A stretch of 64,000 bases of DNA, from contig JAFYOI010000055.1 in NCBI GenBank assembly GCA_017560255.1, positions 62,001 through 126,000 on the forward strand, read 5' to 3'. The first letter of the stretch is position 1. Every line of letters begins with the position of its first letter. The notes below the pieces were generated by a model. That model did no database searches, was not told the origin of the DNA, and saw only the letters and a program-made list of their open reading frames with translations. Source of the DNA: Clostridia bacterium (GTDB taxonomy: Bacteria > Bacillota > Clostridia > Oscillospirales > Acutalibacteraceae). Both the position numbers and the translations under genes were made by a program. Of this stretch, positions 53,100-55,798 are shown in pieces.

Positions 53100-53738
53100 A
53101 TGGCAAAAGGATTCGACTATTCAAAAATAAGATATTATAAACTTTATCCGATAGCGCGTGCGATTGCAAAAATTGTTGTAAAACTTTTGTTTCGTGTGAA
53201 GTACGTCGGTAAGGAAAATATTCCGCAATCACAGGGATATATCCTTGCAAGTAATCATATTTCACTTCTTGATCCGGTTGTCAGTGCAATTGCGGTAAAA
53301 GACAGAATTTTCTATATGGGTAAGGCGGAATTGTTTGACAATAAATTAGTAGGTTATTTTATGACGCATTTTCAAGGCTTTCCCGTTAACAGAAACAGGG
53401 GCGATTTATCTGCTATTGAATATGCAATAAACGTTGTAAAAGAAAACAACGTGCTTGGCATTTTTCCTGAGGGAACAAGATCCAAAGATGGAAAACCGTT
53501 GTCGCCCAAAGCGGGTATTGCTATGATTGCAAATAAAACCGGTGCGGACGTTTTACCCGTCAGTGTATATTGTGAGGGAAAAGTTCGTCCGTTTAAAAAA
53601 ATAACTGTTCGTTTTGGTGAACTGATAAAGAACGATGAACTTGTTATTGAAAACGGCAAAGCGAGCGAACTTAAACGTGCAACTCACATCGTTATGGATA
53701 AAATTGTAGATATGTGGGAGGAAGGGCATTGCAAATAA
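53100..53738 (+). CDS. plsC: 1-acyl-sn-glycerol-3-phosphate acyltransferase
   Basis: 212 aa; the ATG abuts the cmk stop. Acyltransferase motif I NHISLLDP (HxxxxD), the GFPVNRNRGD region, motif III FPEGTRSKDG, and a final VLPVSVYCEG. A hydrophobic N-terminal segment places it at the membrane. It makes phosphatidic acid from lysophosphatidate. The 3' end overlaps the start of ispH by 10 bases, and its last codons contain the ispH ribosome-binding site. Confidence 0.94.
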   Translation: MAKGFDYSKIRYYKLYPIARAIAKIVVKLLFRVKYVGKENIPQSQGYILASNHISLLDPVVSAIAVKDRIFYMGKAELFDNKLVGYFMTHFQGFPVNRNRGDLSAIEYAINVVKENNVLGIFPEGTRSKDGKPLSPKAGIAMIANKTGADVLPVSVYCEGKVRPFKKITVRFGELIKNDELVIENGKASELKRATHIVMDKIVDMWEEGHCK

Positions 53739-55798
53739 AATTGGCGGAAACTGCTGGCTTTTGTTTTGGTGTAAACAGAGCAGTTGAATTGGTTGAGAAT
53801 CTGCTTAATGATGGGAATAAAGTTTACACTCTTGGCCCGATCATACATAATCCGCAATTTGTTGAAAGCCTTTCACAAAGAGGAGCGGTAATAATCGACG
53901 CTCCCTTGCAGGCAGCAAATGACGGTGTTGTTGTTTTACGCTCACACGGTGTTACAAAAAGTATCAAGGAAGAAATTCAAAGACTTTCTTTGAATTTTGT
54001 TGATGCTACTTGTCCTTTTGTTGAAAAAATACATAATATTGTTCGCGAAAATTCAAGCGAAGATAACGTTGTTTTTATAGCGGGTGATAAAAATCATCCC
54101 GAAGTTCAGGGCATCCGTAGCTATGCAAAGGGTAAATCCTATGTTTTTAAAAACGCTGACGAGCTGATAACACTTTGCTCAGATGAGGAAAAAAATAGCG
54201 AAAAGGAAAAAATCTTTGTAGCACAGACCACTTTTAACACAAAAGAGTGGAAAAAATGCAAAAAAAATATAAATTTGCTGTATACAAATGCAAAAATATT
54301 TGATACAATATGTATTGCGACTGAAAAAAGGCAAAAAGAAGCGATTGAACTTTCCAAAAAATCTGATATAATGATTGTTATTGGCGGAAAGAAAAGTTCA
54401 AACACAGCAAAGTTGCGCAGTGTGTGCGCGGATAATTGCCCGTCGTATTTAATTGAAACGGCATCGGAACTAAAAAATATTGATTTTTCCGGTGTTAAAT
54501 CAGTTGGTTTTACCGCAGGGGCATCAACCCCTGATGGAATAATTAAGGAGGTACTTAAAACTATGTCTGAAATTCAGAACGAAAAAACGGAGCTTGTGAA
54601 CGAGGAATTGACCGACAAGTGCGAAAAAGTCACGGAGGAGGTCGCTTCGCAGAAGCCCGTTGCAGATGTAGCGGAAGAGGCTCCGACGAAGTCTTTTGAC
54701 GAAATGACCTTTGAAGAGGCACTTGAGGCATCCCTCAAAAATATGTCCTCTGACCAGAAGGTTAAGGGCATCGTTGTGGGCGTAACACCCACAGAGGTAC
54801 AGGTTGATATCGGCAGAAAGCAGGCTGGATTTGTTCCTTATGATGAGTTCACCGCTACACCGAACGTTAACCTCAAAGAGGCTGTAAAGATCGGCGATGA
54901 ACTTGACCTTATCATCATGAGAACGAACGATCAGGAGGGCACAATGATGCTTTCCAAGCGTCGTTTTGATGCAATCAAGTGCTGGGACGATATTACAAAG
55001 GCCGTTGAGGAAAACACTGTATTCGAAGGCGTTGTTACAGACATCATCCGTGGTGGTGTTCTTGTTGCAACAAACGACTGTGTAAAGGTATTCGTTCCTG
55101 CTTCTCTCGCAACAGCAAGCAGAAACGATAACATCGAGGATCTTAAGGGCAAGAGCGTTAAGTTCAAGATTATCGAAGTAAACCGTCAGAGAAAACGTGC
55201 GGTAGGTTCTATCAAAGCAACTCTTTCCGAGGAGCGCAAGAAGAATCGTGAACTCTTCTGGGCAAATATTCAGGAGGGACAGGTTTTCACAGGTATGGTT
55301 AAGTCCATCACTGCTTACGGCGCATTTGTTGATCTTGGCGGCGTTGATGGTATGGTTCACGTATCCGAACTCTCTTGGAACAGAATCAAGCATCCGTCCG
55401 AGATTGTAAAGGTTGGCGATTACATTGAGGTAACCGTTAAGGCTATCGACAGAGAGAAGAAGACAGTTTCTCTCGGCTACCGCAAGGATGCAGATAATCC
55501 GTGGGTTATCCTCAAGGATAAGTATCAGGTTGGCGACGTTGCAAAGGTTAAGATTGTTGGTATGACAGCATTCGGTGCTTTCGCAAGCCTTATCGATGGA
55601 ATTGACGGTCTTATCCACATTTCTCAGATCACAAACCGCAGAATCGACAAGCCGCAGGATGTTCTTTCTGTTGGTGATGAGGTTGAAGCAAAGATCACTG
55701 AGATTGATTATGACAGAAAGCGCGTTAGCCTTTCTATCAGAGCGCTTATCGAACCTGAGACCGTTGCTGAGGAAGCACCGGCTGAGGATGCTGAATAA
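53729..55798 (+). CDS. ispH: IspH-ribosomal protein S1 fusion (HMBPP reductase / S1)
   Basis: 689 aa from a TTG at 53729, which has GGAGG 7 bases upstream and gives the typical IspH opening MQIKLAETAGFCFGVNRAV; a GTG at 53714 would overlap that site. IspH (~1-278) has its three cluster cysteines in GFCFGV, DATCPFV and DTICIAT and the SxN motif SSNTAKL; it makes IPP/DMAPP in the MEP pathway. The S1 part (~290-689) has four S1 RNA-binding repeats, e.g. TGMVKSITAYGAFVDLGG, and an acidic tail. The fusion is known in Clostridia. A strong internal ribosome-binding site at the junction may give separate S1 (~411 aa). Confidence 0.95.
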   Translation: MQIKLAETAGFCFGVNRAVELVENLLNDGNKVYTLGPIIHNPQFVESLSQRGAVIIDAPLQAANDGVVVLRSHGVTKSIKEEIQRLSLNFVDATCPFVEKIHNIVRENSSEDNVVFIAGDKNHPEVQGIRSYAKGKSYVFKNADELITLCSDEEKNSEKEKIFVAQTTFNTKEWKKCKKNINLLYTNAKIFDTICIATEKRQKEAIELSKKSDIMIVIGGKKSSNTAKLRSVCADNCPSYLIETASELKNIDFSGVKSVGFTAGASTPDGIIKEVLKTMSEIQNEKTELVNEELTDKCEKVTEEVASQKPVADVAEEAPTKSFDEMTFEEALEASLKNMSSDQKVKGIVVGVTPTEVQVDIGRKQAGFVPYDEFTATPNVNLKEAVKIGDELDLIIMRTNDQEGTMMLSKRRFDAIKCWDDITKAVEENTVFEGVVTDIIRGGVLVATNDCVKVFVPASLATASRNDNIEDLKGKSVKFKIIEVNRQRKRAVGSIKATLSEERKKNRELFWANIQEGQVFTGMVKSITAYGAFVDLGGVDGMVHVSELSWNRIKHPSEIVKVGDYIEVTVKAIDREKKTVSLGYRKDADNPWVILKDKYQVGDVAKVKIVGMTAFGAFASLIDGIDGLIHISQITNRRIDKPQDVLSVGDEVEAKITEIDYDRKRVSLSIRALIEPETVAEEAPAEDAE
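54545..54565 (+). promoter_or_regulatory. rpsA: Internal Shine-Dalgarno site and ATG for a separate S1 protein
   Basis: AAGGAGGT (54545-54552), a perfect anti-SD match, then 10 bases, then in-frame ATG at 54563, whose product would begin MSEIQNEKTEL and run to 55798 as a normal-length S1 (411 aa). IspH homology ends just before this ATG (STPDGIIKEVLKT). Confidence 0.7.

Follow-up and report, generated by a model that had tools for sequence, protein, structure and literature searches.

The window analysed here, a whole stretch of 64,000 nucleotides from a member of the Clostridia, carries a gene in which ispH, encoding an isoprenoid enzyme, is joined in frame to rpsA, encoding ribosomal protein S1, which helps ribosomes to start on mRNA (Table 1). 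The frame is open from TTG 53729, the best start for ispH, through to a stop codon at 55796-55798. Its product scores 689.8 bits with the family NF000907 (cut-off 624), the match extending over residues 6-683 and both domains, as expected of an IspH-S1 fusion. In a 693-aa query, the match to the IspH model TIGR00216 ends at residue 285 and the S1 models begin at 309-332. The inner product alone matches PF00575 in four stretches, corresponding to four S1 domains, and is assigned to free 30S ribosomal protein S1 by NF005208 with 369.2 bits, barely above the cut-off of 368. In a search of the same genome, the fused gene was both the sole IspH match and the sole full S1 match, and no relative was found in the viral contigs searched.

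Table 1. Features of the fused ispH-rpsA locus (window coordinates; SD, Shine-Dalgarno sequence).
Feature	Position	Strand	Remarks
GGAGG, SD of ispH itself	53717..53721	+	in plsC 3' end; anti-SD energy -10.3
Fused ispH-rpsA ORF	53729..55798	+	TTG start, 689 aa, 76.2 kDa; NCBIfam NF000907
IspH (LytB) part, 278 aa	53729..54562	+	TIGR00216 and PF02401 matches
Candidate -35, TATACA	54281..54286	+	17-nt spacer; conserved at 16-18 nt spacing
Candidate extended -10, TGATACAAT	54301..54309	+	TGnTACAAT conservation; synonymous constraint
Hairpin CAGGGG-CATCAA-CCCCTG, just upstream of SD	54516..54533	+	excess stability, third-base covariation
Internal SD, AAGGAGGT	54545..54552	+	GGAGG kept in 162/163 fused genes
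Internal start codon ATG, candidate for free S1	54563..54565	+	in 162/163, ATG or (two cases) GTG; usual distance from GGAGG 8 or 11 nt
Predicted free ribosomal protein S1	54563..55798	+	411 aa, 45.6 kDa; PF00575 x4; NF005208

At the junction, near the end of the IspH homology, the sequence reads ATT AAG GAG GTA CTT AAA ACT ATG TCT GAA. Here, the first-pass annotation had noticed an SD, AAGGAGGT, followed after 10 nt by an in-frame ATG from which an S1 of normal length would start, and both the site and the length of the predicted protein are borne out. The spacing is rather long, which counts against use of the ATG as a start. The window contains a single motif of the form AAGGAGGT-N5-12-ATG, and such a motif is present in 19 of 100 shuffles; because 0.19 occurrences are expected per shuffled window, the lone site is weak evidence by itself, suggestive at most. 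Pairing of the anti-SD with the sequence before ATG 54563 amounts to -12.5 kcal/mol, the strongest among 256 internal in-frame ATGs of the long ORFs in the window and on par with the top 10% among the best start sites of these ORFs. The anti-SD CACCTCCTT is present in all eight relatives checked; these were used because a search for the 16S 3' end in the genome's own assembly gave no match. A further GGAGG, followed by ATGATG, is found within the S1 part at 54934-54948 (anti-SD -11.5) and is probably due to chance.

The first-pass annotation had proposed that the site be sought in other ispH-rpsA fusions, its absence from relatives being taken to speak against internal initiation. Fused genes, mostly from Clostridia, were gathered from the same family and order, from the wider class and from named genomes, and those from the wider class were picked on purpose among fusions missing a strict DNA pattern of the site. 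This pattern matched 150 of 391 class genomes, and its reversed control gave none among the matches listed for the same genomes. In effect, SD codons of the form NNG-GAG-G (containing GGAGG), followed by an in-frame start, are present in 162 of the 163 fused genes, which come from many families of the class, and since SD and start are conserved in this way, chance is ruled out as an explanation of the site. In the first 112 fusions, the Glu codon is always GAG, flanked by a codon ending in G and by a following G. The preceding codon is AAG in 77, GAG in 16, AGG in 11, TTG in 3, CAG in 2, GGG in 2 and ATG in 1, so the residue varies among Lys, Glu, Arg, Leu, Gln, Gly and Met. The start codon in this set is ATG in 111 and GTG in one, and it lies 11 nt from GGAGG in 102 and 8 nt in nine. 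Over all fusions, the ATG was lost in three cases and replaced by GTG in two of them (L055 and L230). The sole exception among the 163 is L215, which has AAA GAA GTT and no ATG at that place. In this gene, a GGTGAGG followed by an ATG is found a few codons downstream.

The conservation of these codons goes beyond what the protein would demand. Of 256 conserved columns of the gene, none is under stronger synonymous constraint than the two SD codons (z 15.5 and 14.4): GAG is observed in 162 of 163 genes with 69.6 expected, and AAG in 117 of 118 with 44.6 expected, raw counts that are not independent because the genomes are related. Codon changes were therefore also counted on a FastTree phylogeny, which addresses kinship by parsimony alone; on this tree, GAA and GAG are exchanged once at the SD Glu vs 16-46 times at 21 other Glu columns. 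The codon before GAG shows 28 residue changes and a single third-base change, compared with 13-85 third-base changes (median 69) at comparable IspH columns. Among ispH genes without a fused S1, GGAGG is found at that place in only 1 of 57. A Ser AGT column at -62 also had a high constraint score and was discounted, given that a change between AGY and TCN serine codons takes more than one step. Fused genes of this class are characterized, then, by an SD and an in-frame start within a longer ORF, both kept beyond the need of coding.

Additional information comes from relatives in which the two genes are separate. In genomes of the Lachnospiraceae type and some others (L057, L154 and L158), ispH ends shortly past the site and S1 is encoded in a separate frame. 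When such split genes overlap, the S1 ATG lies in frame +1 or +2 directly after the same GGAGG in 14 of 14 cases. In [Ruminococcus] torques (L245), for instance, S1 begins ATG TCA GAA TTA TCT TTT GAA. These overlaps resemble the fusion in having GGAGG inside ispH followed by the S1 start; they are not fused because ispH stops and S1 is read in one of the two other frames. Here, GGAGG must serve to start S1, since the S1 frame has no other sensible start upstream. Conversely, where split genes have an intergenic SD for S1 (L157, L213, L218, L220, L221 and L229), the ispH codons lack GGAGG. As the same SD is used in the other two phases, the fusion looks like an in-phase overlap of ispH and rpsA. 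The unit of SD and start is thus constant, with its phase relative to ispH alone varying, and the fusion is the phase-0 case. The sharing of the SD by split genes also means that the site may predate the fusion, and it could consequently be a relic of once separate genes, disused since they were joined. This is highly improbable, as relics decay, and the tree that shows dozens of changes for third bases elsewhere in ispH shows one at the site.

The predicted structure of the RNA around the site is also informative. At the internal ATG, the RNA is less folded than in synonymous shuffles (by up to +1.6 kcal/mol, t up to 7.5), and in the windows directly before it folding is stronger than in the shuffles (-2.2, t -9.4). 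The upstream structure corresponds to a hairpin that is more stable than synonymous shuffles by 2.65 kcal/mol in the 163 fusions and by 3.4 in the split overlaps vs 0.56 in standalone ispH. It pairs the third bases of Ala/Pro and Gly/Thr codons in the motif AGASTP, and these covary with z of 6.2 and 4.0, compared with -1.8 to 2.7 for 25 other third-base pairs. In sister sequences where both bases have changed, pairing is kept in 7 of 17 and 6 of 18 cases vs 0-3 of 10-17 in controls. A search of the region against Rfam gave no match at the gathering score, and two weak matches, to a miRNA and a fungal snoRNA, were rejected as chance. Given that the SD-like site lies exactly at the domain border, it might be thought to pause elongation there and aid folding instead of serving initiation. 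A mere pause hardly fits a start codon that is kept at fixed spacing and usually becomes GTG when lost, RNA that is unstructured after the ATG as at a real start, or split genes whose S1 starts there, and this explanation has very little to recommend it.

Codon usage changes at the same point. When scored for codon adaptation against EF-Tu loci, the IspH part averages 0.34 and the S1 part 0.56, S1 exceeds IspH in 28 of 28 genomes (p 7e-9), and the rise comes at the internal ATG; this jump is not what equal translation of both halves would predict. The published view of the fusion is that of a 'Rosetta stone' protein, a single polypeptide with a possible sensor role (Rao 2015, PMC4746011), in organisms where no other IspH or full S1 was found (PMC4746011). 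If so, the fusion would be the sole product and the functional S1, and the SD-like site would be unused. In agreement with this, the frame is open in most of the Clostridia sampled, and the Clostridium thermocellum fusion, made in E. coli, was a full-length 81-kDa protein, active as IspH, with free S1 unreported (PMC4746011). Nevertheless, the purified protein carried an N-terminal tag (PMC4746011), and free S1 would have been lost in that purification because of the position of the tag; a 46-kDa protein that co-purified was E. coli Rho by fingerprinting (PMC4746011). The words 'internal', 'start codon' and 'Shine' are absent from the main text of that paper (PMC4746011). The single-product view leaves unexplained the synonymous constraint on the SD codons, the use of the same SD by split relatives, the absence of the SD from standalone ispH and the jump in codon usage at the ATG, and it is very unlikely, if marginally less so than the relic or the pause.

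A further element lies within ispH, some 250 nt upstream of where S1 starts. After the SD, the next highest synonymous constraint falls on the Ile ATA and Thr ACA codons of the FDTIC motif, which read TTTGATACAATATG (z 13 at ACA ATA). In the window, the element is TATACA-N17-TACAAT (54281-54309). Of 139 fused genes, 95 have the pattern TGnTACAAT, as do 1 of 50 standalone ispH genes and 2 of 12 split genes, and a -35 hexamer matching in at least four of six positions stands at 16-18 nt in 100 of the 139 fused genes vs 24 and 7 at control spacings. These -35 and -10 hexamers, spaced by 16-18 nt and conserved beyond the expectation from codon use, constitute a predicted sigma-A-like promoter in the ispH of about two thirds of the fusions. 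It is absent in GC-rich cases such as L026, L040 and L050; AT content does not explain it, because the loci that carry it are GC-richer. In a scan of the region overall, promoter-like sites were about as frequent as in shuffles. Two other promoter-like sites, at 53823 and 54345, have nominal scores above that of the element at 54281-54309; the second, at 54345-54372 within ispH, reads TTGAAC-N16-TGATATAAT.

Taken together, two genes very probably share one frame at this locus, one yielding the IspH-S1 fusion from TTG 53729 and the other free S1 from ATG 54563. The idea that a single frame gives both products had been put forward in the first-pass annotation, and it gains strong support from conservation of the SD and start, the split relatives, an accessible start and the codon-usage jump. 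The candidate internal promoter and the hairpin are additions to what that annotation had noticed. The same annotation had suggested that the fusion might be a by-product of stop loss, which is compatible with split relatives sharing the SD in other phases. At the level of sequence, the SD, start, hairpin and promoter-like elements are demonstrably conserved beyond the need of protein coding, and the best reading is that ispH contains, in phase, a nested cassette for S1 expression. Ribosomes starting at TTG 53729 would run on to the end of S1 without encountering a stop, producing the fusion. Independently, other ribosomes would bind AAGGAGGT and start at ATG 54563, producing a free S1 of 45.6 kDa. 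In the genome of the window, as in about two thirds of its relatives, the internal promoter would probably give rise to a shorter mRNA, with a start expected near 54316 in the window. Its leader, about 250 nt long, would contain the hairpin just upstream of the SD, and this hairpin may have a role of its own. Free S1 is probably the main cellular S1, and IspH is most likely made solely as part of the fusion. A bolder proposal, falling somewhat short of probable, is that the full cassette (promoter, leader of about 250 nt with conserved hairpin, SD and start) operates in ispH across Clostridia, with free S1 as the main product, the hairpin regulating S1, possibly through S1 itself, and the fusion resulting chiefly from the in-phase overlap.

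What is known already is the fusion and, as a kind, internal in-frame starts. The gene and domain order of the published NF000907 family, which occurs across Clostridia, is the same as here (PMC4746011); the difference is that the product was presented as a single polypeptide, whereas an internal S1 start is proposed here. C. acetobutylicum is another carrier of the fusion, and fusions in Fusobacterium, which have six S1 repeats, may have arisen independently. Phage endolysins (PMC9430671, PMC3111421), Cas11b (PMC11899642) and SpaO (PMC13059759) likewise have one frame with an internal start that gives a full-length and a C-terminal product. In contrast to those cases, the inner product here is a whole ribosomal protein within the gene of an isoprenoid enzyme. 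The arrangement is conserved, moreover, in much of a bacterial class, where a promoter-like element of its own often accompanies it. A partial search of the literature found no account of an internal S1 start in ispH-rpsA, of its class-wide conservation or of the nested promoter-like and hairpin elements. In another sampled genome, an IspH match (G465:C1:1155647-1156423) lies in a 739-aa open frame, while the other sampled IspHs of its family are standalone; it may represent another fusion.

S1 is annotated solely within an IspH fusion of about 76 kDa in many Clostridia, gut and industrial species among them. If the arrangement proposed here is true, a ribosomal protein lies concealed in hundreds of database entries, and the reading of a published 'Rosetta stone' protein would change. 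In addition, how one gene supplies both an abundant and a scarce protein would become directly testable.
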